From an uncultured bacterium (lineage in GTDB: Bacteria > Verrucomicrobiota > Kiritimatiellia > RFP12 > UBA1067), in assembly GCA_902780865.1 (NCBI GenBank), contig CACZHC010000005.1, positions 1-48,750 of the forward strand: DNA of 48,750 nucleotides, in the 5' to 3' direction. A program made the translations under genes and the position numbers. Within the stretch, counting starts at the first letter, position 1. Every line of letters starts with the position of its first letter. Of this stretch, positions 1,692-27,302 are shown piece by piece. The notes beneath the pieces were generated by a model. It had not been told where the DNA came from and ran no database searches. It saw only the letters and a program-made list of their open reading frames with translations.

Positions 1692-1803
1692 GTTCTTTTT
1701 TCCTTTCGCGGCCTTTGGCCGACTTTTACAGCGCCACAGCGGCGCCTACAGTTATTTAGACGAACGAGAGGGCGAATTTATTTTTGTTATATTTATTTTT
1801 GTT

Positions 1804-1889
1804 TTTTAACGCAGAGTCGCAAAGTCGCAGAGAACGCAGAGAATAATTGTTCTCAGCGCACTCCGCGTCTCAGCGTCTCTGCGTTAAAA
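1804..1889. repeat. CGCAGAG-type intergenic inverted repeat
   Basis: Perfect 13-bp inverted ends (TTTTAACGCAGAG at 1804-1816, its complement at 1877-1889) flank octamer-like units (variants of CGCAGAG and CTCTGCG) around an A/T-rich centre. It sits between the stop of the rmlD-like gene (1908) and the start of the Spy-like gene (1691). A half copy lies at 2917-2952. Repeats of this type occur between genes in many environmental bacteria; their function is unknown. Confidence 0.8.
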
Positions 1890-1907
1890 CATCATGCCTA
1901 AAAATGC

Positions 1908-2906
1908 TCAAAGTCCAGAATCTGGCGAGGCGACAAAGTCGCGGAGCGCGTCCTGCCAGCGCGGGGTGCGGTAGCCGAGCAAGTTCAGAACGCTCTTCTT
2001 CAGCGCCGAATTGCGCGGACGCGGCGCAGGGCGTGGGAATTCCTCGGTCGTGCAGGGGACGACTTCGCGCTTGAGCCCCATGAGGCGGAAAAGTTCGACC
2101 GTCAGGTCGTACCAAGTGCACTGGTCTTCGCATGTTCCATGGACGATGCCGCTTACGTCGGGGCGAGAGATGAGAAAGCGAATTACGTCCGCGACGACCT
2201 TTGTCGATGTCGGGTTGCCGCGCTGGTCGTTGACGACCTTGAGCGCAGGCCCCTCCTGGGCACCAAGCTTGGCCATCGTGTGAACGAAGCTCGGTCCGCC
2301 GGCGCCGTAGAGCCACGCGATGCGGAGGATCGTCGCGTCGGGCATGATCATGTGGATCATCTGCTCACCCGCGAACTTAGACGCGCCGTAGACGGTGCGC
2401 GGGCGCGGGATGTCCATCTCGCTCCATGCCCACGGCTCGCGCGGCGGCTCGCCAGAGAAGACGTAGTCGGTGGAGATCGCGATAAGCCGCGCACCTGCCG
2501 CCCTGCACGCAAGCGCGACATTGCGCGAGCCCTCTTCGTTGAGCTTGAACGCGAGATCTCGCTTCGCCTCGCAGTCATCGACCTTCGTCATCGCCGCGCA
2601 GTGGATCACGACGTCAGGCGCTGCGGCGATTGTCTTCTCGGTGAACGCATCCGCGTCGGTGATGTCCCACTCAGGAAGATCTGCGATAAGGAGCTCGTTC
2701 CTTCGCTCGTTCCGCTCATCGCTCACTCTCTCCGTCACTCGGGAGTTTCCCGCGCCTGACGGCTCAAGCTCGTTCCTTCGCTCGTTCCGCTCATCGCTCA
2801 CTCTCTCCGTCACTCGGGAGTTTCCCGCGCCTTGCGGCTCAAACTCCAGTTCCTTCTGCAGGGTCCTGCCCAGCATGCCCTTTCCGCCAGTGATCAGTAT
2901 CTTCAT
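1908..2906 (-). CDS. rmlD: RmlD-type dTDP-4-dehydrorhamnose reductase / sugar-nucleotide reductase
   Basis: This 332-aa protein starts MKILITGGKGMLG, the NAD(P)-binding glycine motif of extended short-chain dehydrogenases. It carries the catalytic YGASK (YxxxK) motif and the RmlD-type strings STDYVFSG and RGNPTST. RmlD reduces dTDP-4-keto-L-rhamnose to dTDP-L-rhamnose in the cytoplasm, for surface polysaccharide synthesis. The protein is about 40-50 residues longer than usual. The excess is two tandem 25-aa copies of a repeat (…GNSRVTERVSDERNERRNEL) inserted between the first helix and the second strand, encoded at 2692-2841. No rmlA/B/C genes are nearby, so a related sugar-nucleotide reductase is possible. 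The ATG at 2906 is preceded by a G-rich stretch. Confidence 0.85.
   Translation of the reverse strand: MKILITGGKGMLGRTLQKELEFEPQGAGNSRVTERVSDERNERRNELEPSGAGNSRVTERVSDERNERRNELLIADLPEWDITDADAFTEKTIAAAPDVVIHCAAMTKVDDCEAKRDLAFKLNEEGSRNVALACRAAGARLIAISTDYVFSGEPPREPWAWSEMDIPRPRTVYGASKFAGEQMIHMIMPDATILRIAWLYGAGGPSFVHTMAKLGAQEGPALKVVNDQRGNPTSTKVVADVIRFLISRPDVSGIVHGTCEDQCTWYDLTVELFRLMGLKREVVPCTTEEFPRPAPRPRNSALKKSVLNLLGYRTPRWQDALRDFVASPDSGL
2692..2841. repeat. 75-bp tandem direct repeat inside the rmlD-like gene
   Basis: Two adjacent 75-bp units (2692-2766 and 2767-2841) differ at two positions. Each adds 25 in-frame residues to the reductase, at a place where homologues have a short turn. The unit is rich in GCTC/GTTC steps and reads through as VSDERNERRNEL, which is highly charged and probably surface exposed. 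Confidence 0.95.
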
Positions 2907-5174: not shown

Positions 5175-5200
5175 ATGGTGCTCGGGGCGGGACTCGAACC
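5175..5200. other. attL: attL: left attachment repeat of the prophage
   Basis: These 26 bp are identical to 42765-42790, which hold the 3' end (acceptor stem, CCA and T-arm side) of the intact tRNA-Leu gene. Sequences diverge immediately after the repeat. The copy here is the displaced original tRNA end; the other copy rebuilds the tRNA. Confidence 0.92.
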
Positions 5201-9033: not shown

Positions 9034-9227
9034 TTTTTGCTGCAGGAACAAGACGCCACGAGACCATCAAAGCCGAAGAGGTCCTTCGGCCGAGTGCGAC
9101 GTGGCCGGCGCGATTCGTGGCGCGCGCCCGGGTTTGGCGCGATACGTACGTCGTGCAACGGTTTGGGATTCGCACCAGGGCGGGGCGACACGCCGCCTTA
9201 CAATTTGAGGGGAGCTGCTGCAGATGA
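9030..9227 (+). CDS. Possible 65-aa early protein
   Basis: An ATG at 9030 overlaps the preceding stop and the frame closes with an overlap into the primase start at 9224, continuing the chain of coupled genes. The product is Arg-rich (RPSATWPARFVARARVWRD). No ribosome site stands out and no family is recognised. It may instead be untranslated spacer. Confidence 0.45.
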   Translation: MIFAAGTRRHETIKAEEVLRPSATWPARFVARARVWRDTYVVQRFGIRTRAGRHAALQFEGSCCR

Positions 9228-12200
9228 CGATCGAGGATTTCCTTTCGCAGCTCCAGGGCGTGGTCGAGACGGGCGCGGGCAAGTGGTCCGCGTGCTGCCC
9301 GGCGCATGATGATTCGAATCCATCGATGTCCGTCACGGTGGGCGACAACGGCGGGATCCTCGTGCACTGCCACGCTGGATGTTCGCCTGAGTCGATCGTC
9401 GGCGCGATGGGGCTGAAGATGAGCGATTTGATGAAGGACAGTCCTCGCCGTGGCCGCGAGCCGGGGAAGAAGAAGTCGGCGAAGGCCGACGACGCGCCGC
9501 TGCCGAGCTTCAAGGCGCCGAAGAAGAAGCGCGACTACGGCAAGAAGGTCGCGGAGTACGATTACCAGGACGCGGACGGCAAGGCGATCTTCCGCGTGGA
9601 GCGGCGCGTCATGGCCGACGGGAAGAAGACATTCGTGCAGATGCACCCGGATCCGAAGAGCAAGTACGGCTGGACCTGGGGCGTGAAATCGGCCGGCGTC
9701 GAGCGTGTGCCCTTCCATCTGCCGAAGATCCTCGCCGCGGGAAAAGCCGGGAAGAATGTCGTCGTCGTCGAGGGCGAGAAGGACGTCCTGACGGTCGAGA
9801 AGCTGATAGGATGCTGCGCCACGTGCAACAGCGGGGGCGCTGGCAAGTGGGAGCGCGGCTGGGGGAAGTACTTCGAGGGCGTTCCGAAGATTTTGATTGT
9901 GGCCGACAAGGATCCGGAGAAGAAGATCGACGAGAAGACCGGCGAGGAGAAGACGTTCGCCGTCGGCCAGAAGCATGCGTGTCTCGTCGAGCGCTGCCTG
10001 CGGGGCGACGGCTACGAGGGCAAGATCGTCAAGATATGCGTCTCGGACGTCGCAGGCGCGGACGGTGCGACGGTGCACTGCAAGGACTTCACGGACTGGG
10101 CGGAGGCGATGGCGGCCGCGGGAAAGAAGGTCGACAAGTCGGCGTTCCAGGAAGCGATCAGGGCATTTGGCCAGTGGCCAGAGAACTGGCAGTTCGGCGA
10201 CGCCGACTTGGCCGACCTTCCGCGCGCCGGAAAAGCGGCGCGCAACTCCGCATCCTCTGGAGACGGGCACGAGCGCGCCGGAAAAGCGGCGCGCAACTCC
10301 GCATCCTCTGAAGCCGAGGAATTTTCCGCCGCTGGGAGGTTCGGCCGCCCGTCCCCCCTCTCCCCCTCTGAAAAGGAGCGTTGGTTTTTGGTGGATTACC
10401 AAATCAATGCCGGAAAGATCGCGCGGTTTGAAATCGGCGTAAACCACTTCAGGTTCGAGGGCTGGAAGAAGAGCAACAACGACGACGAGACGAAGGGCAA
10501 GTTCGTGAAGGACGCGAAGTACTCCGCGATGGAGGGCGAGCTGACGCAGTTCTTCGGCCTGGCGTTCGGATGCTGCTCGAGCTTCGACCACACGTTCAAG
10601 GTTTCCGGGCCGGTACGGCTTGCGCTCGTCTCGTCGATAACGCTGGCGTGGCTCAGGTCTCGCGGCAAGTTTTTCGCGGACATGAACAACCCCTGCTACG
10701 AGACCTCGCTATTCTTCGACTCGGCGCAGGGCGTCCTCTATCTGCTGCACTCGAACGAGTTTTCGTCGTTTCTCGCGACGATCGCGGATGTGAACCGCGA
10801 GGACAAGCTCTTCAAGTACATGGTCTCGCTAATCGACGACATGGCGCTCGATGCGGCAATTACGCCGCGCGTCGTGCCGTCTAAGGAATGGGACCGGCGC
10901 GGTGGCGCGATCTACATCTCCAATGGCGACTCGCAGGTCTGCAAGGTCACCGGCGGGAAGTTCGAGCTCGTTCCGAACGGGACCGACGACGTGCTATTCA
11001 TCCGCGGCGCAACGCTCGCGCCCTGGGCGGTCGAGGAAGGCCCGGGCGTGGATCCGTTCAAGGACTCGATGCTCTTCAAGCTCGCGGCGCTCGAGAAGGA
11101 AACCGATCGGATGAACTGCCGGCTGTGGTGGCTCAATCTTTTCGCATGCCATGCGAATAAGCCGATCTTGCTCGTGACTGGGCCGAAGGGCTCCGGAAAG
11201 ACGCGGCTGCTGCAGGGCATGAAGCAGTTCCTCGGAATGCGCGAGGACGGCAAGCCCGACGATACGGTCAACGATATCGACCCGACCGACAAGGGCCTCG
11301 ACGCGTTCTGGATTATCGAGGACCGCGGGCGCTTTGAGATCTTCGACAACTACGACTCGAAGATTAAGTGGGCCGAGAATGCTTTCCAGACGGCCGCGAC
11401 GAACGGCTCGGCCAAGCGCCGCGAACTTTACAAGACTTCGACGCTCGTCACGCTGTCGGCCAATGCCTACATGGGCGTGACGTCTAACAATCCGATCTTC
11501 ACGACCGAGGGCGGAGGTCTGCCGGACCGTATCATCACGGCGCGGATCGGCAGCGGCCGCAAGGTCTCCGTCGGCGACGAGCTGCGGAAGGACATCGACG
11601 AGCACCGGAACCAGTACATGACATGGCTCGTCCGGACGCTCATGGCTGCGCTGGCCGACGACAAGCCGGTGGACACGTCCATCAACAGGCGCCATCCGGA
11701 CTATGGCGTGTTCGCTGTCCGCTGCGGGCGTGCCTTCGGCGATGAGATGGGCGCAGTCGCGGCGATGGAGGCGGCAGAGCTCGACAAGGCCCTGCTGCCG
11801 CTCCTCAATGACACCGTCGCAAAGGAAATCGTCGCCGTGCTGCGTGCCCAGGAGCCGGTCGGCTCGATGCGCTTCACGGCATCGGATATGTCGGACGCCA
11901 TCATCAAGCGCTTCGGAGACGACGAAAGCGACGACAACACCAAGAAGATCTACGGCGCCAGGCGCATTGGCAAGGCCATCAAGAAGCTCGAGCGTGAGTT
12001 CTCCACCCTCTTCAGCTGGACGTCTGGCACAATCGAGGGCCGCACTCGATACGAATTTACGGGGCTAACCACCCAGGGGAACCTGGTTTTTGGCCCTGAT
12101 TCCGGTGGATTCGGTGGGTTTGGAGGGTTAGATTCGGGAAAAGTCTCTACGGGATGCGCACACGCGGGGGACTTTTTCGAAAACAACCCACCAAATCCAC

Positions 12201-12328
12201 CTAACCCACCATACGCGCGCGCGCAGGCGCATTCGGACTTTTCTTCCGTTAAAGGGGAGAGAATAGGGGGAGATTCTGAAAGTGATGTTGATTACGGCGA
12301 CGACCCGGAGGACTTCGAGCTATGGTGA
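9224..12328 (+). CDS. Phage primase-helicase (CHC2 zinc finger, TOPRIM, P-loop ATPase)
   Basis: This 1034-aa replication protein has, in order: a CHC2-type zinc motif (C25, H28, C49, C53, with CCPAHDD and CHAGC); a TOPRIM-like region with VVVEGEKD near 180 and ILIVADKD near 224; a linker with two 17-aa repeats near 333-366; and a C-terminal ATPase domain with Walker A LLVTGPKGSGKT near 648-660 and an acidic Walker B-like EIFDNYD near 706. It would lay RNA primers and unwind or organise the fork for phage DNA. The C-terminus is Gly/Phe- and Pro/Asn-rich (GGFGGFGG, PPNPPNPP), encoded by quasi-palindromic DNA. It overlaps the next gene by ATGG-frame coupling. Confidence 0.85.
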   Translation: MTIEDFLSQLQGVVETGAGKWSACCPAHDDSNPSMSVTVGDNGGILVHCHAGCSPESIVGAMGLKMSDLMKDSPRRGREPGKKKSAKADDAPLPSFKAPKKKRDYGKKVAEYDYQDADGKAIFRVERRVMADGKKTFVQMHPDPKSKYGWTWGVKSAGVERVPFHLPKILAAGKAGKNVVVVEGEKDVLTVEKLIGCCATCNSGGAGKWERGWGKYFEGVPKILIVADKDPEKKIDEKTGEEKTFAVGQKHACLVERCLRGDGYEGKIVKICVSDVAGADGATVHCKDFTDWAEAMAAAGKKVDKSAFQEAIRAFGQWPENWQFGDADLADLPRAGKAARNSASSGDGHERAGKAARNSASSEAEEFSAAGRFGRPSPLSPSEKERWFLVDYQINAGKIARFEIGVNHFRFEGWKKSNNDDETKGKFVKDAKYSAMEGELTQFFGLAFGCCSSFDHTFKVSGPVRLALVSSITLAWLRSRGKFFADMNNPCYETSLFFDSAQGVLYLLHSNEFSSFLATIADVNREDKLFKYMVSLIDDMALDAAITPRVVPSKEWDRRGGAIYISNGDSQVCKVTGGKFELVPNGTDDVLFIRGATLAPWAVEEGPGVDPFKDSMLFKLAALEKETDRMNCRLWWLNLFACHANKPILLVTGPKGSGKTRLLQGMKQFLGMREDGKPDDTVNDIDPTDKGLDAFWIIEDRGRFEIFDNYDSKIKWAENAFQTAATNGSAKRRELYKTSTLVTLSANAYMGVTSNNPIFTTEGGGLPDRIITARIGSGRKVSVGDELRKDIDEHRNQYMTWLVRTLMAALADDKPVDTSINRRHPDYGVFAVRCGRAFGDEMGAVAAMEAAELDKALLPLLNDTVAKEIVAVLRAQEPVGSMRFTASDMSDAIIKRFGDDESDDNTKKIYGARRIGKAIKKLEREFSTLFSWTSGTIEGRTRYEFTGLTTQGNLVFGPDSGGFGGFGGLDSGKVSTGCAHAGDFFENNPPNPPNPPYARAQAHSDFSSVKGERIGGDSESDVDYGDDPEDFELW
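10222..10310. repeat. Two 38-bp direct repeats, each with a hairpin, in the primase linker
   Basis: Identical 38-bp copies lie at 10222-10259 and 10273-10310, 51 bp (17 codons) apart, so the frame is kept. Each copy begins with a perfect inverted repeat GCGCGCCG-GAAAAG-CGGCGCGC. In protein they give RAGKAARNSASS twice. The site is a likely disordered linker between the TOPRIM and ATPase parts. Confidence 0.95.
12104..12210. repeat. GGTGGGTT-type quasi-inverted repeat at the end of the primase gene
   Basis: The left block 12104-12130 has GGTGGATTCGGTGGGTTTGG-type units, and the right block 12185-12210 has the complementary CCACC/AACCC units. A further copy of the left type lies at 12772-12792. 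The blocks encode the GGFGGFGG and PPNPPNPP stretches. They may form a large hairpin or act as iteron-like sites near the replication genes. Confidence 0.6.
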
Positions 12329-12879
12329 CGGTCGGCGAGAAGGTGTGGAATCGGCTGCGGGCTGCGGGCGGCTTCGTCTGGACATTGGCGGACGGCCGGA
12401 AGTTTGTGCACTTCAACAAGGGGTGCCACTGCTCGCCAGAACTGCGAGACCTCCTGAAGCGCCACAGCGAGGAGCTGAAGGCGTTCGTCGACGCCAGGCA
12501 CGCCGAGGCCGACCGCGGCCGGCGTCGTCCTGCCCTCCCCCCGGGGGTAGGTTCTTCCCAGGCGGCCGATCGGGATGCCCCCATCGGGCGAGATCGCCGT
12601 ATTTGCGAGTGCAACGCCGACACGAGGTTCCCGATTTCAGGGGAATCGGCCGAAAAGTGGAATTTCAGCCACCGGCGGGGTGCTGCAGCCGTCTCTCCGG
12701 CGATTTCAGCCGTCCTGGCAGCGGTTTTCGCCGCCTTCTCTGAAATTCAGGGGGCACCCGCGCACGCGCCCGGTGGGTCGGTGGGTTTGAGGAATGCGCT
12801 TTTAACGAAATCTTCCTCGGAGGGCGGGGCACGGGTGTGTCTTGCTGACTCGGGGGTAAACACAAAAACGGGGAGGTAG
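12322..12879 (+). CDS. Unrecognised 185-aa protein with TubC_N-like N-terminus
   Basis: The first ~65 residues (VWNRLRAAGGFVWTLADGRKF … LRDLLKRHSEELKAFVDAR) resemble the small helical-hairpin TubC_N-type domain found after phage replication proteins. The remainder is Arg/Ala/Ser-rich low complexity without recognisable domains and may be poorly structured or decayed. It starts within the last codons of the primase gene. Function unknown. Confidence 0.55.
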   Translation: MVTVGEKVWNRLRAAGGFVWTLADGRKFVHFNKGCHCSPELRDLLKRHSEELKAFVDARHAEADRGRRRPALPPGVGSSQAADRDAPIGRDRRICECNADTRFPISGESAEKWNFSHRRGAAAVSPAISAVLAAVFAAFSEIQGAPAHAPGGSVGLRNALLTKSSSEGGARVCLADSGVNTKTGR

Positions 12880-12881: not shown

Positions 12882-14384
12882 ATGGCTAAGGAACAGAAAT
12901 GGATGAAGGTCGAGCGGCTCGTCCACGTCGACTGGAATCCGCGAACGCCCGAGGAGCTCAAATGGGACCATCCGGAAATGGTTCCGCTGATCGCGTCGGT
13001 GAAGTCCGTCGGCGTCGTGCAGCCGATTGCGGTGTGGGCGGATAAGGCGGCGATCGAGCACTGCGACTACGAGGCGGCAAAGCATCCGATCGACGGCGTC
13101 GTCATCGCGGGCAACCGTCGCCTGGAGGCGGCGGTGGCTGCGGGACTAAAGGAAATTCCGGCGCTCGTCTTTACGGACATCAGCAGCGCCCAGGCACAGG
13201 AAATCACGCGCCTCGAGAACGAAGTGCGCCTCGGCGTGGATCCGCTGAAGGACGCGTCGCTCATCGGCTCCATGCTGGGACTCGGCTACTCGCAGAAGGA
13301 AATCGCCGCGCACTTCGGCGTCTCGGAGGCGCGGATCTGCCGGCGGCGCAAGCTGCTCGATCTCGTGCCCGCGATCCGGGAGCTCGCGGAGAAAAGCGGC
13401 AAGCTCACCGTCGACGCGCTCGAGCGGATCGCGCTCTATCCGAAGGACATCCAGGAGCGGTGCGCGAAGGAAGTCGTCCACCGCGTGGGATGCGGTTCAT
13501 CGGATTCGCAGATCAAATGGCGAGACATCTCCTGGAAGTTCGCGGACGAAACGCAGGACCTCGAAGACGCGCAGTTCGACACATCGCCCTGCAAGTCGTG
13601 CCCGAAGCGCACCGGCGCACAGCCCGACCTCTGGGGCGATACGGCGGACGACGGCGACGGGCTCGGGGTGTGTCTCGATGCGAAATGCTACCGCGAGCGC
13701 TGCGAGGCATGGGCGATGGAGAAACTTCGCAAGAAAGTCGGCAAGCGCGTCGAGCTGATTCCAGGCGCGAAGAACGGAATCGCATATCCGTACAGCGCCC
13801 CGGACAGCATCTTCGCCTTCGAGGACCAGAAGTCCGACAAAAAGCATCCGGCGTGCTGGTACTGGATCGACGAATACGACGGCGAGCTCAGCTACAGGTT
13901 CGGGCCGACGGTCGAAGACTACACCGCCGAGATGCAGCGTCGCAAGAAAGAAGCGGAAGAGGTCGCGAATGCCACCAAGAAAAAACAGGCGAAGATCAAG
14001 GCCGAGGAGGCGCGCAAGGCGAAACTGCAGAAGGAACTCGACGGACTGGAAGGTGCAGCCGGCGACCTCGAGTACAAAATCGCGCAGAAGGTCAGCGTCG
14101 CGGTACAGGGAGGAAAGAGCGAGGCCGACATGGTGAAGTTCGTCGAGTCGAAACTGCTGAACGTCGTCGGATTCCCGAAGCCGCAGCGCCTCGCACTCGC
14201 GAAGTTCATCGCCCCCTACTTCGACTACGGCTGCGGCGACTACGACGCGGACATCGCGGACCTCTGCGACGCCTTCCCGAAGTTCGCGACGGCGTGCAAG
14301 GTCACGAAGAAGGAACTGAGCGAACGCGCGGCCGCGCGCCTCGCCGTCGAGACGTTCAAGATGAAGAACAACATCAAGGACTGA
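12882..14384 (+). CDS. ParB/Srx-fold protein with helix-turn-helix and Cys cluster
   Basis: This 500-aa protein begins with a ParB-like domain (GVVQPIAVW near 44 and GNRRLEAAVAAG near 78-89). A KorB-type helix-turn-helix follows (SQKEIAAHFGVSEARICRRRKLL, about 137-159, one continuous helix pair). A Cys cluster (CKSCPKR near 236 and CLDAKCYRERC near 263) probably binds metal. After that come a coiled coil (about 350-400) and a C-terminal helical region. Phage proteins of this type act in partition, transcription control or nicking. GGGGAGG lies just before the ATG. It stands between primase and sliding clamp genes, so a replication or partition role is likely. Which activity it has is not shown by the sequence. 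Confidence 0.8.
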   Translation: MAKEQKWMKVERLVHVDWNPRTPEELKWDHPEMVPLIASVKSVGVVQPIAVWADKAAIEHCDYEAAKHPIDGVVIAGNRRLEAAVAAGLKEIPALVFTDISSAQAQEITRLENEVRLGVDPLKDASLIGSMLGLGYSQKEIAAHFGVSEARICRRRKLLDLVPAIRELAEKSGKLTVDALERIALYPKDIQERCAKEVVHRVGCGSSDSQIKWRDISWKFADETQDLEDAQFDTSPCKSCPKRTGAQPDLWGDTADDGDGLGVCLDAKCYRERCEAWAMEKLRKKVGKRVELIPGAKNGIAYPYSAPDSIFAFEDQKSDKKHPACWYWIDEYDGELSYRFGPTVEDYTAEMQRRKKEAEEVANATKKKQAKIKAEEARKAKLQKELDGLEGAAGDLEYKIAQKVSVAVQGGKSEADMVKFVESKLLNVVGFPKPQRLALAKFIAPYFDYGCGDYDADIADLCDAFPKFATACKVTKKELSERAAARLAVETFKMKNNIKD

Positions 14385-14387: not shown

Positions 14388-14642
14388 ATGGACGAGAAGA
14401 AAATGAAGAAACTGACCGTCGGCGACATGAGCGGCTGCAACCGCTCCGGCGAAAGATGCCACGTCGTCCGCGAGAGCATCGGGGAGATCGCCGTCGGCGA
14501 GGCGGTGTTGATCCGCTTCAAGGGCGAGTGCGGCGACATCACGCCGTGGCGCCGCTACATGCTCGAGGAAAAACACTTCCGCGACGAGTACGATGCAACG
14601 CGACTCAGATACACCGGAACATTCGTTCGCGTCACGAAATGA
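14388..14642 (+). CDS. Unrecognised 84-aa protein
   Basis: The protein (MDEKKMKKLTVGDMSGCNRSG … RRYMLEEKHFRDEYDATRLRY) is charged, with two Cys in the first half and one in the middle. It starts four bases after the ParB-like gene and its stop overlaps an ATG, so it belongs to the replication operon. No family recognised. Confidence 0.6.
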   Translation: MDEKKMKKLTVGDMSGCNRSGERCHVVRESIGEIAVGEAVLIRFKGECGDITPWRRYMLEEKHFRDEYDATRLRYTGTFVRVTK

Positions 14643-14656
14643 AAAAGGAGGAAATC

Positions 14657-15799
14657 ATGAAAATCGAAATCAAGTCCCAGACGATCATGTTCGTCGCGAA
14701 GATCTTCGAGAGACTCTTCGGCGACGACGTCCCCGTTGAAATCTCCGCGACGGCGAACGGTGCCGCGCTCACCGCCGGATCCGGTACCAGCGCTGCCACC
14801 CTTCCGCTCGCGACGGCCCGCGTGATTGAAGTCGGCGAAGTCGTCGCCGAGGTCGGCAGTCTCATCCGCGCCGTCTCCGCGTTTCCCCGCCGCGAGATCG
14901 CCATCGCCTCCTCCGACGATTCCCGCGCGATAGTCTTCGCCGACGGCATGCGCCTGAAGCTCGACCACGAGTTCGGGAAGCCGCTCCGGCCCGACAAGGC
15001 CGAGAGCGGCGCGGCCTGCGCCGTAGTCGACGCGGGCCTGCTCTTCGACGTGGTCGACGCCGTCCGGCACGCGATGGCCTGCGCCTTCGACCGCCCGAGT
15101 CTCAAGTCCCTTCGGCTCGAGATCTCCGACGACCTCTGCCTGGCCGCCGCCGCGGCTGACGGCCGCCGCCTCTCGTTCGTTGAGCGGTGGCTCAAGGACG
15201 CCTCCATCCCGAAGGGCGGCTTCCAGGTGACGCTTCCGGCCGTCGCCGTCGACTTCATCCTCTCCGCGCCCCACGGCAGCCGCGTGTCGATCTTCGTCGA
15301 GAAGCACAGCGTCACGATCCTGACCGGCAGCAGTCTCGGCAGATTCTTCTCGGACATCGGCTTCCCCAAGTGGCGCGACGTCGTCCCGGCAGAAGAGTCG
15401 CCGCAGGTCGCGGGCCTTTCCTGCCAGGAGACGGCCGCCGCCCTTCGCGCCCTTCTCACATTCGCCGGCTTCGACGAAGACTCGGACGACGCCTACGCGC
15501 CGTCCGTCAGGATCACCCGCGAGAAGAATTCCGTCGAGCTGAAGCGCGTCGTCGCCCGAAACGTCTACGAGCGCACCGGCGACTTCACCGCGCACTTCAA
15601 CGTCGGACTGACGGAGCACCCGCCCTTCAGCGTCACCATCAACGCGAAGTATCTCCTCGATGCGCTCGGCGAGCACACGGGCAGCGTGATCATCCGCGCC
15701 CGCAAGAACGAGAGCGACGCGGGCTATGGCGTCCTCCAGCTCGACTTCGAGGACGACGCAGACATCCACGAAGTCATCATGCCCATCCGCGAGATCTGA
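14657..15799 (+). CDS. Phage-encoded DnaN-like sliding clamp (beta subunit)
   Basis: The 380-aa length and pattern match bacterial beta clamps made of three similar domains. Recognisable landmarks are SLKSLRLEI … ADGRRLSFV near 150-175 (compare the ATDGHRLA region of DnaN), GFPKWRDVVP near 235 (compare FPDYRRVIP), SVTINAKYLLDALG near 325 (compare the N-x-x-YL-LDAL motif) and the C-terminal EVIMPIREI (compare VIMPMRL). Such a ring holds the polymerase on DNA. AAAGGAGG before the ATG at 14657 fixes the start. No phage polymerase gene is present, so the clamp would have to work with host DNA polymerase III. Confidence 0.8.
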   Translation: MKIEIKSQTIMFVAKIFERLFGDDVPVEISATANGAALTAGSGTSAATLPLATARVIEVGEVVAEVGSLIRAVSAFPRREIAIASSDDSRAIVFADGMRLKLDHEFGKPLRPDKAESGAACAVVDAGLLFDVVDAVRHAMACAFDRPSLKSLRLEISDDLCLAAAAADGRRLSFVERWLKDASIPKGGFQVTLPAVAVDFILSAPHGSRVSIFVEKHSVTILTGSSLGRFFSDIGFPKWRDVVPAEESPQVAGLSCQETAAALRALLTFAGFDEDSDDAYAPSVRITREKNSVELKRVVARNVYERTGDFTAHFNVGLTEHPPFSVTINAKYLLDALGEHTGSVIIRARKNESDAGYGVLQLDFEDDADIHEVIMPIREI

Positions 15800-15816
15800 A
15801 ATAATTGAGGTGCAAA

Positions 15817-16098
15817 ATGAAAGACATATTAATCTTTGACGACCCGCAGAAGGACGAGTTCATCGAGATCTTCAAGGCGCCTCCGATCCCTCTGATCGAG
15901 GTCAAGAAAATCCTCGAGCGCCAGGCCAACACCTACATCCTCGCGAACACATCGCCCTGGACGGACTGCTTCTACATGGACAAGCTCTTGTATGAGCGCG
16001 CACATTTATCAGCCCCACGGCGGGGCGAGCCGGAAGTGCTGAAACCGCCGAGGCAAAAGACGGGACCCTCCCCGGCAATTTTGGAGGGAACACGGTGA
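15817..16098 (+). CDS. Unrecognised 93-aa protein
   Basis: The first ~65 residues (MKDILIFDDPQKDEFIEIF … WTDCFYMDKLLYERAHL) look like a folded small domain; the last ~25 are Pro/Arg-rich and less protein-like. TTGAGGTG precedes the ATG at 15817. No family recognised. The odd tail leads into a 294-bp stretch (16099-16392) in which no convincing gene is seen; short frames there lack ribosome sites. Confidence 0.55.
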   Translation: MKDILIFDDPQKDEFIEIFKAPPIPLIEVKKILERQANTYILANTSPWTDCFYMDKLLYERAHLSAPRRGEPEVLKPPRQKTGPSPAILEGTR

Positions 16099-16392: not shown

Positions 16393-16881
16393 ATGAGCGA
16401 AAGACAAGAGACGGTCGACGACATCATCGCGGAGAAGCGGCGACGGGCCGAAGAGATCGAGCGTGACTGCGCCGAGAAGATGAAGCGCGGCGAGATGGTT
16501 AGCGACTGCTACGCTCGCGAGCTTGTCGCGGACATCCGCCGCGAGGCCGACCGCCTTGAGGCCGCGCACAGGCGCGAACGCGGCAACTCCGCCGCGCTGC
16601 GCGAGGCGCTGGAAGCGGCAGAGCTTGGATTGTTCTGGTGGCAGTCCGGGTCAATGAACCGAGACAAGCATCGCGCACTGATCGCCACGATTAAGGCCGC
16701 CCTCGCCGCGCCGCCGCGCAACTGCGACATATACTTCACGGAAGAGGCCGTGGGCGCGGCGACCGTGACCGTGCGCGACTGCGGGGCGTGTTCCCGCATC
16801 GACATGGAAGCCCCGTGCGTTTTCTGCATGGTGCGCTGGCTACTCGCCCCGGCGCAGGAGAAGGAAGGAGATGCAAAGTGA
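16393..16881 (+). CDS. Accessory phage protein, paralogue A
   Basis: This 162-aa protein shares its layout with the product of 17728-18309. The shared strings are an N-terminal ETVDDIIAE, then RLEAAHRRE, NSAALREALE, ALAAPPRNCD and a C-terminal W-LLAPAQ. It has a cluster of Cys in the last third (CGACSRID, CVFCM) that may bind metal. AAAGGAGAAGC precedes the ATG. Proteins of this layout are common small accessory proteins of gut phages; function unknown. The C-terminus GDAK is the translation of the next gene's ribosome site. Confidence 0.65.
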   Translation: MSERQETVDDIIAEKRRRAEEIERDCAEKMKRGEMVSDCYARELVADIRREADRLEAAHRRERGNSAALREALEAAELGLFWWQSGSMNRDKHRALIATIKAALAAPPRNCDIYFTEEAVGAATVTVRDCGACSRIDMEAPCVFCMVRWLLAPAQEKEGDAK

Positions 16882-17156: not shown

Positions 17157-17731
17157 GCTGGGACGGCAAGACGTACGACAAGTACAGGATAGCGCACACG
17201 GACGGAACGCCCCTCAAGGGAAAAAAGTATTTCGTCCTACGCCTCGACTCCGACGACCCCGTGGAGGCGGCAAGGGTTGCCGCCGCAATGCGGGCGTACA
17301 AAGGCGCGCCAAGGATGGAGGCACGAATGGCTGAAACGTACGATACAATCAAAGGACTGCTCGCGGAGTTTCGCGGCTACTCGGCGGGTATGCCTGCGAG
17401 CTACCACGTCACGATGAGCTGGGCGGACTTCCGCAAGATGCTCACCCGCTTCGAGTGGGCGCACGACCATGACATCGCGACTGCGACCGAGGCGTGCGCG
17501 CGTGCGGTCGTCGGCGCGTGCGTGAAGCAGCAGGAAGCGGAGCGCGAGCGCGACGAGATGCTTGACGCGCTTGTCCGCATCGGCAACTGGTGCGCCCAGG
17601 ATCTGGCCGAGAACACATACGTGAGCGATTCCAGCGGAAACTACCTGAAGACGCTCAACGGGCTGTGCGAGGTGTGTAGGCCCTTCATGCAGAAGGCGAG
17701 CAAGTTAAAGAGATACGGAGGTGTGGAATGA
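17153..17731 (+). CDS. Unrecognised 192-aa protein, probably two fused small genes
   Basis: The first ~58 residues (MSWDGKTYDKYRIAHTDGTP … DPVEAARVAAAMRAYKG) look like a complete small phage protein. The rest starts at an in-frame ATG (17327) preceded by GGAGGCACGA, a strong ribosome site like those between neighbouring genes. The second part (MAETYDTIKGLLAEFRG …) is helical with a Cys-containing end. The frame may therefore be translated both as one fused protein and as a separate 134-aa protein. Function unknown. Confidence 0.6.
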   Translation: MSWDGKTYDKYRIAHTDGTPLKGKKYFVLRLDSDDPVEAARVAAAMRAYKGAPRMEARMAETYDTIKGLLAEFRGYSAGMPASYHVTMSWADFRKMLTRFEWAHDHDIATATEACARAVVGACVKQQEAERERDEMLDALVRIGNWCAQDLAENTYVSDSSGNYLKTLNGLCEVCRPFMQKASKLKRYGGVE

Positions 17732-18309
17732 GTGACACAAACGAGACAATCGCGGACATCATCGCGGAAATGCGTTTCCACGCGCAACAAAATATCGACG
17801 CAGAGAAGGACAAGCCAGAGTACGGCTTCTTAACCGTCGAGGGGAGGAGCATCCAGAGCTACGCCGACCGTCTTGAGGCGGCGCACAAGCGCGAGCTCAT
17901 TGAAGTGGCAACCCGTGCGGCTACGCAGGGCGTGAAGCTGACCAACGAAAAGTATGCCAACATGCCTATCGGCAACTCCGCCGCGCTGCGCGAGGCGCTG
18001 GTTCGTGTTCAGGACTGGCTGAAACGCATGAACGCGGAACCGCTGAACACGCTGGCTGTATCAGAGTTGACGCCATCATACGCTGTAAACAGAACCGCAA
18101 AGTCAATCATCGAGGATAATGATTACCACATTAGTCAACTCACCGCCGCCCTTGCCGCGCCGCCGCGCAACTGCGACCGATTCGGCGGCGACATAGACAA
18201 ACTGAGAGAGGCGTGTGCACGGGAGCGTGGCTTGAATCCCGAAGAGGACTTCCCCGACGTGTTCCCAGACTGGCTTCTCGCCCTGGCGCAGAAAGGAGGC
18301 GCGAAGTGA
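17728..18309 (+). CDS. Accessory phage protein, paralogue B
   Basis: This 193-aa protein is the second member of the pair with 16393-16881. It has ETIADIIAEMR at the start, a YADRLEAAHKRE helix, NSAALREALVRV, ALAAPPRNCDR and a final DWLLALAQKGGAK. The middle 50 residues differ from paralogue A. It overlaps the preceding gene by ATGA. The C-terminal GGAK is the ribosome site of the next gene read in frame. Function unknown. Confidence 0.65.
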   Translation: MSDTNETIADIIAEMRFHAQQNIDAEKDKPEYGFLTVEGRSIQSYADRLEAAHKRELIEVATRAATQGVKLTNEKYANMPIGNSAALREALVRVQDWLKRMNAEPLNTLAVSELTPSYAVNRTAKSIIEDNDYHISQLTAALAAPPRNCDRFGGDIDKLREACARERGLNPEEDFPDVFPDWLLALAQKGGAK

Positions 18310-20613: not shown

Positions 20614-21095
20614 AAGACCCAGAAAAGGCACGCGCCTACCGTAAATCGCGCAGAGAGATTGACCGCAAACGCGAAGCCATGCGCTACGCGACTGATCCAG
20701 CATTCCGCGCCCGCAAGATCGCCTCGGCCCAAAAGTATTACGCGAAACATCGCGAGAAGCGCGATAATGTCAAGAAGAAGTGGGCTGATGCCAATCGCAA
20801 CAAGGTGCGCGGCTACGTGAGGAAGTCCATAAGGAAAACCAGGCTTGCGTGGTGTTTTGATTCCGAGCTGTATGCGAAAGGGAGAGCGTACGATCGGATG
20901 CTAAAGGCAAAGCGCACCATCCTGCGGGGCGGAACGTACAGACCGCACTTTGGATACCGCATACCAGATTGGGCGGTCAAGGGCGAGACGATATTGAATT
21001 CCTCGTCTCAGTGGCTCCAGAGCAACATCACGCCGTCGCAACGCGCATTCGCGCGCGAACTCGCAATCGAGAGAAAGGAGCGGTCGGCGACGTGA
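20604..21095 (+). CDS. Basic protein upstream of terminase, possible small terminase or DNA-binding protein
   Basis: This 163-aa protein is strongly basic. It has KDPEKARAYRKSRREIDRKRE and KYYAKHREKRDNVKKKWADANR, a pattern of repeated KxRxY units often found next to HNH or DNA-binding domains of phages. ACAGGAGG gives a good ribosome site. Its place directly before the large terminase is where the small subunit normally lies, but no terS signature is visible. Function uncertain. Confidence 0.55.
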   Translation: MPLKDPEKARAYRKSRREIDRKREAMRYATDPAFRARKIASAQKYYAKHREKRDNVKKKWADANRNKVRGYVRKSIRKTRLAWCFDSELYAKGRAYDRMLKAKRTILRGGTYRPHFGYRIPDWAVKGETILNSSSQWLQSNITPSQRAFARELAIERKERSAT

Positions 21096-23254
21096 CGAAG
21101 AAGAAGAGACTCGCGCTCGCCAAGCTCGCGAAGAAGGCGGCGGCGGAACGCCGGGCCGCGCAGGAAGCCGAAGAAAAGGCGAACCTCGCGCACTGGCTCG
21201 AAGGCACCGCGTGGCCGTCATTCCAGGAAAAGCTGAAGGCGAACTCGACCGAGCGCTCCCGCGCCTGGCGCGTCCACGGTCGCGAGCTCGGGCCGATCCC
21301 GCCGCCACGCCACCCCAGACTCCTCGAGTCATGCCGCTATGATCTACTTCGCTTCGGCACCATATTCTGTACCGGCGAATACGAGGGCATGAAGCCGCTC
21401 CTGAAGCGCCCGCCTTCCCTGCGGATGCAGCGCTTCATCAAGGCGCTCCAAGACAAGATCCTCCACGGCGGCCTGAAGCACGTGCGCTGGCCGCGCGGCA
21501 AGGGCAAGTCCACCTGGGTGAAGATCGCCATCATGTGGGCCGCCCTCTACGGGCACAAGTTCTTCATGGTCGTGGTGGAGAAGACAAAGGGCATGGCCCA
21601 GGTCGTCGTCGAGGAGATCTGGAAGCGCATCCAGACCTCGCCGAAGATCGCGGCCGACTTCCCGGAGTTCGCCATCCCCATGCGCGACGTCGCGCTGACG
21701 CCGCAGCGGATGCGCGTCCAGACCTACATGGGCCGCCCCACCTACATGCGCATGGACGTCTCGAAGTTCTACTACTACAAGCTCCCGACGATCGCCGGCA
21801 TGCCGCACACCGGCGCGATCATCGCCTATCGCGGCGCGGACCAGACGCTGCGCGGAATCAACATCGAGTCGGCGCGTCCGGACTTCTTCTTCATAGACGA
21901 CCCCCAGACGGACGAAGACGCGAAGAACCCCGAGACCGTCGCCAAGATCGAGGACAACATACAAGGCGCGGTGCTCGGCTCCGGCGAGCTCTCCGAGCGC
22001 ATCTCCGCCGTCATGGCCTCGACGCCTATCGAACCGGACGACGTCTCTGAGCGCTTCGCCGATCCGAAGCGACACCCCGAATGGCACACCGAGACCGAGC
22101 CGCTTGTCGTGCACTGGGGGAACGAAGACCTCCGCGACGAATATCTCGCCCTTCTCGCCGCCGACCACGCCCACGAAGACGAGGCGCTCGCGACCTCGCA
22201 AAAGTTCTACATGGAACATCGCGCCGAGATCGAGGCGGGCGTCGTAATGATGGACGACGGCGATTTCGATCCGGAGACCGAGGTCAGCGCCTACCAGCAC
22301 GCGCTGTGGCTCCTGGACACGATGAAGCACAAGCGCTTCTATTCCGAGATGCAGATGGAGACGCGCCGCGACGAGTCGATCATCAACATCACGCCGAAGC
22401 TCATCCTCGCCCGCGTCCGCAAAGGCGCCGTCGCCGCGCAGATTCCGGAGGGCACCGTCATGGTGTGCGTCGCGACTGACATCAACCCCTCCTATGCGTT
22501 AACCTGCGCCGCCGTCGCGTTCGACCCCAGGCGGACCGGTCTCTGCATCGACCACTGGCGGCACCCATGCCACCTGAAGGCGACGCTGAGCGACACGGAG
22601 TTCCACGCCGCGATCTACAACCTGCTCGCGGCGGTCGAGGCGGACTTCGTGGAACGCGGCTACGACATAGCCGACCGCAGCTTCCACTGGGGCATCGACT
22701 GCTCGGGCGCGCAGTACAAGAGCGTGAACCAATTCGTCTACGAGCGCCGCAGGAAGCGCGACACTCCGCTCGATCTCTACGCCATGCGCGGCCTCGACAA
22801 CAAGATGTTCAACCCCCGCGTCTCGACGAGGAAGTTCAAGGAGGTGCCCGGACGGAACGACACCGTTCTCGTCCTGGACTCCGCGACCGGCTACGAGCAT
22901 ATCAACTTCAACAAGGACACATACGAATACACGGCGCACCGTGCATGGCTCCCGGCTGTCGGCGCTCCCGGCGGGCTCTCGCTCTACGAGCTGCGCGGCG
23001 GCGGATCCGTCGAGACGCACGAGGAGTTCGCCCTTCAGGTCTGCGGCGAGCAGCTGAAGTGGAAGCCCGACGATCCCGAGCGCGATCGCGTCGCCTTCAA
23101 GTGGAACGACCGCGTCTACCTGCGCCACGACTACGGCGACTGCGTCTACAACTGCTACGCGCTCGCCGGATTCCTCGGCCTCGCCGTCGAGGGCCTGCAG
23201 CGGCAAGCCACGCGGCGGAAGCGCCGCGCCATCGTGGGCGGGAGAGTGAATTGA
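21092..23254 (+). CDS. terL: Terminase large subunit
   Basis: The 720-aa protein has an ATPase with Walker A RGKGKST (about residues 135-141) and Walker B FFFIDD (about 265-270). A C-terminal RNase H-like nuclease follows, with acidic residues in VATDINPS (~458), GIDCSG (~534) and HDYGDC (~678). It drives DNA into the prohead and cuts concatemers. The first ~45 residues are a Lys/Ala-rich extension. The GTG at 21092 overlaps the preceding stop and follows AAAGGAG by 11 bases. It is longer than most terminases of its class, with additional sequence between the two domains. Confidence 0.85.
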   Translation: MTKKKRLALAKLAKKAAAERRAAQEAEEKANLAHWLEGTAWPSFQEKLKANSTERSRAWRVHGRELGPIPPPRHPRLLESCRYDLLRFGTIFCTGEYEGMKPLLKRPPSLRMQRFIKALQDKILHGGLKHVRWPRGKGKSTWVKIAIMWAALYGHKFFMVVVEKTKGMAQVVVEEIWKRIQTSPKIAADFPEFAIPMRDVALTPQRMRVQTYMGRPTYMRMDVSKFYYYKLPTIAGMPHTGAIIAYRGADQTLRGINIESARPDFFFIDDPQTDEDAKNPETVAKIEDNIQGAVLGSGELSERISAVMASTPIEPDDVSERFADPKRHPEWHTETEPLVVHWGNEDLRDEYLALLAADHAHEDEALATSQKFYMEHRAEIEAGVVMMDDGDFDPETEVSAYQHALWLLDTMKHKRFYSEMQMETRRDESIINITPKLILARVRKGAVAAQIPEGTVMVCVATDINPSYALTCAAVAFDPRRTGLCIDHWRHPCHLKATLSDTEFHAAIYNLLAAVEADFVERGYDIADRSFHWGIDCSGAQYKSVNQFVYERRRKRDTPLDLYAMRGLDNKMFNPRVSTRKFKEVPGRNDTVLVLDSATGYEHINFNKDTYEYTAHRAWLPAVGAPGGLSLYELRGGGSVETHEEFALQVCGEQLKWKPDDPERDRVAFKWNDRVYLRHDYGDCVYNCYALAGFLGLAVEGLQRQATRRKRRAIVGGRVN

Positions 23255-23860: not shown

Positions 23861-25390
23861 ATGTTCGGACTCTTCGGCAAGAAAAAGCAGGGAAACCGCG
23901 GCGAATGCGCCGCGCACCGTTCGCGGCATCCGTTCTTCTTCCGCGCGTTTGCGGCGGCAGAGGTCTCGCGCACCCTCGCCGCGTGGATCTTCGACGGCGG
24001 CTTCTCGAACGCCGAGATCGCGGCGCAGCTCGCCACGATCCGATCGCGCTCTCGCGAGCGCCAGAAGAACGACGAGTATTTCTGCAACTACTTCCGCCTC
24101 TTCAGGAACAACGTAGTCGGTCGCGGCTTCACCTTCAAGGCGCAGCCGTCGCTGATCGCCGGGGAGCCCGAAATCGACAACGAGGCGAAGAAGTTCCTGC
24201 AGTACCACTTCTGGAAGTGGTCGAAGAACCGCCGCGAATGCGATCTCGCCGGCCGCCACAACCTTGCGGCGATCTTCCGCCTCATGGCCGCGAACTGGGC
24301 GCGCGACGGCGAGGCCATCGCCATCATCGAGCGGAACGCTCCGACCGTCTACGGCTTGCAGCTCCGCGTCGTGCGGCCCGACGCCCTGGACGAGACGCTG
24401 AACGCGCGCGGCACGTCTGCCGCGACGACAATCCGGAACGGCGTCGAGATCGAGCGCACCACCCGCCGCGTCGTCGCCTACTGGTTCCGCACCAGCAGGG
24501 AAGACCCGACGGCGGTCTACATCGACGGCTCCCAGCCCTTGATGCGCATTCCCGCCTCCGACGTGATCCACTGCTTCTCGACCGAGGACGCGGCGCAGAC
24601 GCGCGGCATCCCGCTCACCCACGCCGCCCTCAAGAAGGGCAAGATGCTCGACGACTTCAACCAGTCGGAGCTCGTCGCCGCCCTGGACGAGACGAACACG
24701 ATCGGAACTTTCAAGGACAAGTCCGGCCGCGACCCCGCGAGCGCCGGGGTCGGCGCGGCCGACGAGGGATACACCGACGAGGAAAAGGCGGCCTACACGC
24801 AGAAGTCGGAGCCCGGCACGAAAATGTGGCTCGACGGCGACATCGACTTCGAATGGCACAGCCCAAACCATCCGAACCGCGAGGTCACGCCCTTCAAGAA
24901 GACGACAATCCGCGACATCGCCTGCGGCCTCGGCGTGGACTACCCCGTCTTTGCAAACGATCTCGGCGAGGCCAACTTCTCGTCGATCCGCGCAGGCACC
25001 ATCGCCATGCGCGACAACTGGAAGGTGCTGCAGGACGACTTCATCGACCAGGTCGTCACGCCCGTGTACGAGGCGTGGCTTGCATCCTTCCTCGCCCGCC
25101 CTGTCGCGAATCCATACGTGCCGTCGGACTTCGAGCGCCTCGTCGAGCACGAGTTCCAGGGCCGCACGTGGGACTGGGTGGACCCGCTCAAGGACGTCAA
25201 CGCGGCCGTGATCGCGGTCGAGCACGGCTGGAAGACCAACGAAGAGGTGACGTCGCAGTACGGCGGCGCCGACTTCCTCGAGAACTGCGACCGGCTCAAG
25301 ATCGAAAACAAGGCGAAGGCCGCCGCCGGAATCGCGGCCAAGAATCCAACACCCGAAAAGGAGAACAATGAAGAAGAAAATCAAGATTGA
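23861..25390 (+). CDS. Portal protein, lambda (gpB) family
   Basis: This 509-aa protein has the lambda-type portal landmarks: RNNVVGRGFTFKA near residue 82, VVRPDALDETLN near 168, RNGVEIERTTRRVVAYWF, IPASDVIHCFSTEDAAQTRGIPL near 230-252 and a C-terminal NEEVTSQYGGADFLEN, where the family has a similar end. It forms the dodecameric ring through which DNA enters and leaves the head. It overlaps the protease-capsid gene by 23 bp. Confidence 0.9.
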   Translation: MFGLFGKKKQGNRGECAAHRSRHPFFFRAFAAAEVSRTLAAWIFDGGFSNAEIAAQLATIRSRSRERQKNDEYFCNYFRLFRNNVVGRGFTFKAQPSLIAGEPEIDNEAKKFLQYHFWKWSKNRRECDLAGRHNLAAIFRLMAANWARDGEAIAIIERNAPTVYGLQLRVVRPDALDETLNARGTSAATTIRNGVEIERTTRRVVAYWFRTSREDPTAVYIDGSQPLMRIPASDVIHCFSTEDAAQTRGIPLTHAALKKGKMLDDFNQSELVAALDETNTIGTFKDKSGRDPASAGVGAADEGYTDEEKAAYTQKSEPGTKMWLDGDIDFEWHSPNHPNREVTPFKKTTIRDIACGLGVDYPVFANDLGEANFSSIRAGTIAMRDNWKVLQDDFIDQVVTPVYEAWLASFLARPVANPYVPSDFERLVEHEFQGRTWDWVDPLKDVNAAVIAVEHGWKTNEEVTSQYGGADFLENCDRLKIENKAKAAAGIAAKNPTPEKENNEEENQD

Positions 25391-27302
25391 AGTCGAGCCG
25401 CAGTTCCGCAAGCCCGCGGACGATCCGCGCATGTTCCGCGAGGCGGAGCTTACGGTCGAGACCCGCAAGGACGAGAACGGCGAGGCCAAGACCACCGTGC
25501 GCGTCTCCGTTTCGTCGGAGGCGCCCTACCTGCGCCGCTTCCTGTACGACGCCGAGCAGGATGCCTGGGTCAAGGGCTACGAAGTCCTCGGCCACAAGGA
25601 CGGCGAGATCGACGACTCCCGCATGAAGGACGGCCTCATCATCCAGGACACGCACTGGGGAGACCAGATCGGCATCATCCGCAAGCCCGAGGTCAAGGAC
25701 GGCAAGCTCGGCGGCGAGATCGAGTTCGGCTGCGGCGAGCGCGCCCAGGAGATCGCGAAGGACGCGGCGGCCGGGATCCGCCGCAACATGTCCGTCGGCT
25801 ATCTCGTCGTCGAGCAGAAGAAGGTCGGCAAGGCCGAGGACGGACTTCCCATTTTCCGCGTCACGAAGTGGACGCCATACGAAGCATCTTTTGTGAACGT
25901 TCCAGCAGACACCCAGGTGGGCGTCGGGCGTTCGCATGAACAACCCCCCACGGCGGCGAAGCCGCTCGAAAGGAACCACATGGAACCCAAAGAGGTGACA
26001 TACTCCGCAGCGGAAGTCACCGAGGCCTACCGCCTCGCCTCCGCCGCTCACATGACAAACGCCGAAGTCCGCGCGATGCTGGACGAAGGCAAGCCCTACG
26101 GCGAGGTGAAGGAAGCCCTCCTCTCCAAGCTCGAGGCGTACCAGAAGGAACTCGCGAAGAAGACCGACAAGCCCGCCGAGCCCTCTCGCCGCGAGTTCGA
26201 CGAAGGCGAGAAGCGCGAGATCGCCAAGCGCTTCGACATCATGAAGGCCATCCGCGCCCTCTGCGCCGAGAAGGGCCAGGCCGTCGGCACCGTCGACGCC
26301 GGCTTCGAGCGCGAGATCTCCGCCGAGATCGGCAAGTTCCGCGGCAAGGTCGCGCAGGGCATCTACGTCCCCGACTTCATCCGCGCCGCCGGCAGCGAGA
26401 CGCTCGGCCGCCCCGCCACCGGCACGATCGCCGGCATCGGCGGCAACGGCCAGGCGACCATCGCGACGAACCTCATGTCGGGCTCGCTCATCGAGGCGCT
26501 CCGCGACACGCTCGTCCTCCGCGAACGCTGCGGCGCCCAGGTGCTCGCCGGTCTCACGGGGAACATCGCGATCCCGAAGAGCGGCAAGCTCACCGCCTCG
26601 TGGATCTCGCAGGAAGGCGGCGACGCCACCAAGACGAATCCGACCTTCGGCCAGATCGCGGCGACCCCGCACGCCCTCGGCGGCTACGTCGACATCACCC
26701 GCCAGCTGCTCATCCAGTCGAGCCTGGACGTCCAGGCGTTCTGCGTCGCGGAGCTCGTCTACGCCATCGCGGCATGCCTTGAGGCGGCGGCGTTCTCCGG
26801 CACCGGCACGGACGGCCAGCCCACCGGCCTCGTCTCGCAGATCACGCAGACCTCCGCGTGGGCGAACGCGCCGACCTTCGACAAGATCGTCGCGCTCATC
26901 GCTCTCGCCCGCAAGGCGAACAGCTACAACGCCAGCTTCCGCTTCGTCGGCGACACCGACGTCTGGTCGAAGCTCGCGACGACCCGCGACTACGAGGTGA
27001 TCCAGAACATCGCCGGCAACGAGAACGTCGCCGTCGCCGGTGGCGCGACCCGCCTCCTCGACGTCGCAACCGACAAGGTGCTCGGCCGCGAGTTCGTCGA
27101 GTCGCACTTCGCGCCCGCGAAGAAGCTCGTCTTCGGCGACTTCTCGCAGCTCGTGTTCGCCCTCTGGAGCGGCACCGACCTCGTCGTGGATCCGTACTCC
27201 AACTGCACGAAGGGCGCGATCCGCGTCGTCGCGCTGCAGGACGCGGACATCCTCGTCAGGCGGCCCGAGTCCTTCGCGCTCGCGACGGGCGTCCACGCCT
27301 AA
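25368..27302 (+). CDS. Fused prohead protease and HK97-type major capsid protein
   Basis: This 644-aa protein combines two usual head proteins. Residues ~30-190 resemble prohead proteases of the S78 type, with a candidate catalytic His in DTHWGDQIG (~95), Ser in RRNMSVGY (~141) and the closing strand WTPYEASFVNVPAD. Residues ~200-335 form a charged coiled coil acting as a delta/scaffold domain. Residues ~335-644 are an HK97-fold capsid, with TNLMSGSLIEALRD, GNIAIPKSGK, GGYVDITRQLL and the closing VALQDADILVRRPESF. The capsid part would be released by self-cleavage. AAAGGAG precedes the ATG. It is followed by a hairpin at 27312-27346. Confidence 0.87.
   Translation: MKKKIKIEVEPQFRKPADDPRMFREAELTVETRKDENGEAKTTVRVSVSSEAPYLRRFLYDAEQDAWVKGYEVLGHKDGEIDDSRMKDGLIIQDTHWGDQIGIIRKPEVKDGKLGGEIEFGCGERAQEIAKDAAAGIRRNMSVGYLVVEQKKVGKAEDGLPIFRVTKWTPYEASFVNVPADTQVGVGRSHEQPPTAAKPLERNHMEPKEVTYSAAEVTEAYRLASAAHMTNAEVRAMLDEGKPYGEVKEALLSKLEAYQKELAKKTDKPAEPSRREFDEGEKREIAKRFDIMKAIRALCAEKGQAVGTVDAGFEREISAEIGKFRGKVAQGIYVPDFIRAAGSETLGRPATGTIAGIGGNGQATIATNLMSGSLIEALRDTLVLRERCGAQVLAGLTGNIAIPKSGKLTASWISQEGGDATKTNPTFGQIAATPHALGGYVDITRQLLIQSSLDVQAFCVAELVYAIAACLEAAAFSGTGTDGQPTGLVSQITQTSAWANAPTFDKIVALIALARKANSYNASFRFVGDTDVWSKLATTRDYEVIQNIAGNENVAVAGGATRLLDVATDKVLGREFVESHFAPAKKLVFGDFSQLVFALWSGTDLVVDPYSNCTKGAIRVVALQDADILVRRPESFALATGVHA

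Follow-up and report, generated by a model that had tools for sequence, protein, structure and literature searches.

A divergent DnaN-type sliding clamp encoded by a temperate phage in which no DNA polymerase was recognized

The gene at 14657-15799 on the plus strand of the window (the whole stretch of DNA analyzed, which is an entire 48,750-base contig of a MAG that is 85.6% complete) encodes a true, distant, and divergent β-type sliding clamp of a temperate phage. The clamp gene lies in a prophage of 37.6 kb (5175-42790) whose two ends are marked by att repeats of 26 bp at a tRNA-Leu gene; the features used in the analysis are the following.

5175-5200: att core of 26 bp, left-hand copy (direct repeat)
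9224-12328 (+): primase, 1034 aa, with an N-terminal primase-like region and a C-terminal P-loop, GPKGSGKT (PHROG 6088, 4.4e-24; PHROG 239, 4.1e-12)
12322-12879 (+): 185-aa ORF between the primase and ParB-like genes, the last of high DNA identity to the relative G096 before the diverged block
12882-14384 (+): ParB/Spo0J/KorB-like protein, 500 aa, the directly upstream member of the block that appears to be exchanged (Pfam ParB_N, 3e-8; PDB Spo0J, 8.6e-12)
14388-14642 (+): 84-aa ORF between the ParB-like gene and the clamp, no convincing match (Pfam, PHROG, PADLOC, PDB)
14657-15799 (+): DnaN-like β sliding clamp, 380 aa (PHROG 947, PDB, TIGR00663, HHalign, AF2, pocket residues)
20969-23254 (+): terminase large subunit, with a 720-aa core common to relatives (PHROG 38, 3.8e-20)
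25368-27302 (+): major head protein with a head-protease-like N-terminal part (PHROG 617, 1.6e-84; PHROG 80; PHROG 3244, head maturation protease)
41578-42675 (-): tyrosine integrase (Pfam Phage_integrase, 1.4e-19; PHROG 1, 1.7e-38)
42765-42790: att core of 26 bp, right-hand copy, inside the 3′ end of tRNA-Leu (direct repeat)
42766-42850 (-): tRNA-Leu (gag), the attachment-site gene (tRNA call)

The att repeat, integrase, terminase, and head protein bear out the phage setting that had been proposed from the letters of the DNA. Host groEL and dnaK genes stand beside the att/integrase end. Two IMG/VR contigs (38.6 and 36.5 kb) span the joined att site, so close relatives also occur in the excised state. 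Five loci were fetched from relative genomes, and in all five an uninterrupted stretch runs from the 32-37 bases flanking the core on its left (from 5138 or 5143) through the core into tRNA-Leu, as in an empty site. The left flank shared with these loci is short, and further left the window is unmatched; in one relative (L171, G002:C2:30000-34500) the genes that come after tRNA-Leu are homologues of window 131-2297, not groEL. Thus, the gene order around the att site differs among relatives. The nearest relatives of the host DnaN (90-94% identical) are from uncultured bacteria, including the goat-duodenum Kiritimatiellae RGIG2266 (93%) and 'Lentisphaerae' RUG673 (94%), and those at 64-76% that carry a group name are assigned to Kiritimatiellae/Kiritimatiellia, Verrucomicrobia, or Lentisphaerae; from these matches, the host is in our view a bacterium of the ruminant gut related to Kiritimatiellae.

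The clamp ORF has an ATG start, 380 codons, and a TGA stop at exactly 14657-15799(+), with a Shine-Dalgarno-type AAGGAGG directly 5′ of the ATG. A minus-strand ORF of 404 aa (14555-15769) overlaps it and was chosen over it by a crude gene picker that relies on codon-position G+C; we take the plus strand as coding at this locus because both homology and synteny favor it. The protein matches PHROG 947 ('DNA polymerase processivity factor') over nearly the full length of the profile, with residues 29-379 aligned to 37-365 of its 368 positions (E 1e-16; the PHROGs have no curated cut-off). The host DnaN matches the same profile far better (2.2e-82), and 13 of 14 control genomes also have a match, so the profile fails to separate phage from cellular clamps. 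In the PDB, phmmer matches residues 52-378 to the Caulobacter β clamp (7.4e-6). The NCBIfam dnaN model TIGR00663 (2.6e-9) is hit with 36.5 bits, far from its cut-off of 137.65, and the three Pfam clamp domains score 17, 16, and 13.7 bits, none reaching its cut-off (27, 24.4, and 27, respectively); we therefore do not file the protein as DnaN itself. An HHalign comparison of three phage clamps alone (the window's and those of the two relatives described below) with six DnaN sequences gives a probability of 99.1 (E 1.1e-18, 303 columns). The comparison with the host dnaN product (G000:C48) that the sequence-only reading had called for gives ~20% identity over 356 aligned positions. As judged from these alignments, the homology of the clamp to DnaN is real but distant. 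A recent copy of the host dnaN was considered as the source of the gene and rejected on account of the ~20% identity and of the separate clade that the phage clamps form in the tree (vide infra). With the window clamp as query, tblastn of the phage collection gave no match at E values up to 1, a scan of the viral contig collection gave no match, and PADLOC found nothing for the clamp.

AF2 run on the three phage clamps alone returned a model that is not usable (pLDDT 37.2); run on an alignment of 50 sequences, of which 45 are bacterial DnaN and pull the model towards the clamp fold, it returned a model with pLDDT 90.5 and pTM 0.86. The best Foldseek matches of this model are bacterial β clamps (E 2.6e-22, TM 0.78), and structure comparison superposes it on Thermotoga β with a Z of 33.6 (354 residues at 2.7 A); among viral models, its best matches are DnaN-like phage clamps. 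In the model, the protein has a DnaN-type fold, with the clamp domain repeated three times along the full chain. The outcome that the sequence-only reading had named as counting against it, a prediction without threefold repeated clamp domains, thus did not occur, and its description of the 380-aa product as a β clamp through all three domains is upheld by the AF2 fold, the Foldseek matches, the Z of ~33, and PHROG 947.

The peptide-binding pocket was compared using the 18 residues of Escherichia coli β that a review lists for it (PMC11139829). The window clamp and the host DnaN share 14 of these 18 residues, compared with 57 of 338 aligned positions elsewhere (Fisher p 8e-8), and the window clamp and E. 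coli β share 13 of 18; the clamps of the two sister phages have 14/18 each. The hydrophobic pocket, for which a check had been proposed, is thus preserved. The host DnaN and E. coli β also share 14/18, so the pocket of the phage clamp resembles the host's as closely as a different bacterium's pocket does. We read the kept pocket as a standard docking site that is probably still offered to the host clamp loader and Pol III.

Other residue sets were also compared. At 16 positions that we take to form the β dimer interface, the window clamp is identical at 5/16, and two pairs of bacterial DnaN proteins at 4/16 and 5/16; since the bacterial pairs also lack an excess of identity there, these positions say nothing about a homodimer, and the idea of a 'private dimer' based on unconserved interface residues was dropped for the same reason. 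At the published DNA-contact residues of E. coli β, the window clamp is identical at 0/5 aligned positions and the host DnaN at 1/6, so this set is equally uninformative. Scans for the published clamp-binding consensus in 49 prophage ORFs found no pentamer and one hexamer (shuffle means 1.0 and 1.2), and a looser hexamer motif occurs at eight places with no strict match; the host DnaE has two clamp-binding pentamer matches. The counts for the published consensus do not rise above the shuffles, and we discarded the scans of the prophage ORFs as evidence either way.

Six-frame searches with Pfam DNA_pol_A, DNA_pol_B, and DNA_pol3_alpha gave no match on the window contig (C5) or on the contigs of the two relatives, and the same searches find the host polA and dnaE (on contigs C38 and C74); for these three families, the earlier statement that the phage has no polymerase holds. 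Scans with Pfam and PHROG of 45 distinct ORFs in the window (all the large ones and a portion of the small, including host flanks and some doubtful frames) recognized the primase-ATPase, ParB-like protein, terminase, head protein, and integrase and no polymerase. No clamp loader was recognized among the ORFs scanned, of which the ATPase encoded at 7429-8070 matches the Rad17/AAA P-loop only weakly; loading of the clamp by the host is therefore an assumption. The same small P-loop ATPase also has weak STAND/AAA and PADLOC mad8 matches and has no blastp match in G096.

The two close relatives from IMG/VR (G096 and G097) were found through the ParB-like protein and primase, not through the clamp, and in all three phages the clamp gene occupies one and the same position, following those for primase and the ParB-like protein. 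For the three pairs (window-G096, window-G097, and G096-G097, respectively), the amino acid identities are 99.6, 98.1, and 98.5% for terminase, 96.7, 91.4, and 93.8% for the head protein, 98.6, 88.4, and 87.6% for integrase, and 98.5, 79.5, and 79.2% for primase; for the clamp, they are 30.4, 32.1, and 43.2% (26.5, 27.2, and 42.7% by a second alignment). All three clamps are intact ORFs despite this great divergence. The ParB-like proteins are 48.9% identical between the window and G097, and 67.0% identical over 270 aligned N-terminal residues between the window and G096. In 60-base steps, the DNA identity of the window and G096 is 93-100% from 12322 to 12801, 83% at 12802, and 16-92% from 12862, the start of the ParB-like gene; identity resumes in pieces from 16546, with small ORFs rearranged. 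From these comparisons, a ParB-like/clamp block appears to have been exchanged between close phages, the ParB-like gene moving along with distant clamp alleles; this reading is based on three genomes, with the G096 contig cut inside the ParB-like gene and DNA identity within that gene patchy and with no clean break. We found no report of an exchange of clamp genes among phages in the literature searched. The block is one of several variable regions: relative to G096, for example, identity is 66% for a tail-region ORF (33390-36038) and 31.5% for a small ORF at 6670, and relative to G097 it is 25-37% for several late genes.

In a tree, the three phage clamps form one clade (support 100/99) with a stem of 2.65 and a window tip of 1.99 changes per site; the clade groups weakly (85/88) with the clamps of two other contigs, L158 and L045, and its place is uncertain because of the long branches. 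L158, an IMG/VR contig, has a phage DnaB shortly upstream of its clamp. L045 (G050:C14), which came up as a second clamp-like match in its genome, is a prophage-like contig from the same host genus; it encodes a DnaN-like clamp together with terminase and structural genes related to those of the window (27-57%).

The ParB-like protein is closest among NCBIfam models to PRTRC ParB (TIGR03734, 2.4e-20, under the cut-off); it has GxRR at residue 77, and the GxRR and ENxxR motifs are present in all three phages. The primase has weak Pfam Zn_ribbon_DnaG and AAA matches. No ParA was recognized among the ORFs scanned, and a search for iterons or an origin in the ParB-clamp block gave no convincing array. 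The small neighbors of the clamp were considered as clamp inhibitors and rejected: 15805-16095 has no PDB match, and 14388-14642 has one weak match (0.012, a P2X receptor) that we judge to be chance. Elsewhere in the prophage, the ORFs at 16393-16881 and 17728-18309 look like paralogues since both match a single G096 ORF (46.5% and 68%), in a region rearranged relative to that phage; the N-terminal protease matches of the head protein suggest a protease-capsid fusion; and 36630-41513 contains five late ORFs with signal-peptide-like N-termini (in the style of MKKLL...AAALA), some of them variable between relatives, that are possibly surface or conversion genes.

Clamps of this kind are present in other phages. 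Using the host DnaN as the tblastn query, 180 of 50,697 phage records match, a count that may miss clamps as divergent as the window's and that is not a pure phage count because bacterial contigs are among the matches (the large Salmonella contigs AGRM01000003.1 and AFYI01000003.1, with an annotated dnaN, sit among the 'phage' records); using the clamp of a Salinibacter phage as the query, 117 records match. The expectation that clamps are rare in phages of this size is therefore only partly right: few phages overall have a DnaN-like clamp, but 27 of the 60 matches listed for the host DnaN query fall in records 30-62 kb long, and the 35-kb Salinibacter phage M8CR30-2 encodes a clamp immediately before a TOPRIM primase. 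In 11 clamp-bearing phages of 35-61 kb, picked by hand from the tblastn matches and not at random, PolA, PolB, and PolIII alpha were found in none (0/11); thus, a phage with a clamp and without a polymerase is an already existing kind. Small phages of PHROG 947 (such as Salinibacter M8CR30-2, Aurantimonas AmM-1, Agrobacterium Rivra, and Arthrobacter Richie) resemble the window in this respect, with a β-type clamp and no PolA, PolB, or PolIII alpha in 35-61 kb; however, the window clamp belongs to its own clade with the two IMG/VR relatives and is encoded directly behind a ParB-like gene. In Arthrobacter phage Piccoletto, a ParB-like gene is ~1 kb from the clamp on the opposite strand. Bacterial DnaN shares with the window clamp the three-domain fold and the pocket and differs from it in sequence (~20% identity, with the window clamp under the TIGR00663 cut-off). 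In T4-type replisomes, the polymerase is gp43. Their clamp (gp45) is also phage-encoded and is served by the gp44/62 loader (PMC9690074), whereas the prophage in the window has a DnaN-type clamp and no recognized phage polymerase or loader.

As the phage encodes a clamp but no recognized polymerase, it probably puts the host polymerase to work on phage DNA. We consider it likely that the phage clamp, loaded by the host clamp loader, is used by the host Pol III for phage replication. This best explanation draws on the fold, the conservation of the pocket, the location in a prophage, the conserved gene order with primase and the ParB-like protein, and the negative searches for three polymerase families; the redirecting of Pol III in particular is supported by the retained pocket. 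On induction, when the clamp would presumably be expressed, the phage primase/ATPase would open and prime the phage DNA, and two phage clamp subunits would assemble a ring (putatively a homodimer). The host clamp loader would then place the ring on the primed phage DNA via the retained pocket, and the host Pol III, perhaps with ligase and repair proteins, would dock on the same pocket, with the result that phage DNA is replicated.

A kept pocket would also serve a clamp that acts chiefly as a takeover weapon, tying up the host clamp-binding proteins or loader and so halting host replication. Gene 35 of mycobacteriophage Adephagia, a putative sliding clamp (PMC11373665; a table in the same source names it exonuclease), is one of the most toxic genes of that phage on overexpression, which its authors suggest may reflect interference with the replication of the host. 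Waterfoul gp48, for which the name sliding clamp subunit is used, is cytotoxic too (PMC11797047). However, toxicity on overexpression is no proof of the natural role, the whole three-domain fold is kept, which is more than a decoy requires, and in three phages the clamp gene stands in synteny with replication genes; we regard takeover as quite unlikely. The low identity of the clamp (27-32%, against 98-99.6% for terminase) might instead be the trace of an arms race, with the ParB-clamp exchange yielding a clamp that is unseen by an inhibitor or sensor of clamps from the host or a rival phage. This exchange among near-identical phages is the single hint at the takeover or evasion of defenses that the sequence-only reading had raised. 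Phage inhibitors of a host clamp exist, for example, Twort Gp168, which acts in the DNA channel (PMC11139829). We judge evasion to be improbable as well: no inhibitor or defense partner was found, PADLOC being negative for the clamp, and tail-region genes vary too (33390-36038), so ordinary phage mosaicism may suffice for the divergence. The very long branches of the tree are what would be expected of a degenerate passenger, that is, a clamp acquired once and now functionless, and yet the ORFs are intact in three phages, in the same place in each genome, with the pocket kept at 14/18 in each and a good Shine-Dalgarno sequence in the window; decay is unlikely on these grounds, and we hold the passenger reading to be very improbable.

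Redirection of the host Pol III, which we prefer, leaves room for a further proposal that we hold to be doubtful: the ParB-like gene and the clamp may be an exchangeable replication-specificity block in which close relatives of one temperate phage swap entire distant clamp alleles, with the docking pocket kept and almost all the rest of the protein changed, so that phage forks could be told from those of the host or of a co-resident phage, or inhibitors could be escaped, with the ParB-like protein marking phage DNA and guiding the clamp and the host Pol III. If this were true, there would be a functional link between the ParB-type DNA-binding protein and the DnaN-type clamp encoded next to it. 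Small phages that bear a clamp and no polymerase were already known, and why such a phage should replace one ring of the host replisome is a question on which the literature searched holds little; the new element is a strikingly divergent clamp among near-identical phages. Three close phages with very different clamps and a kept pocket are a natural experiment that sets partner binding, which must be kept, against what may change, and the same trio allows one to ask whether the choice of clamp decides whose DNA gets copied.
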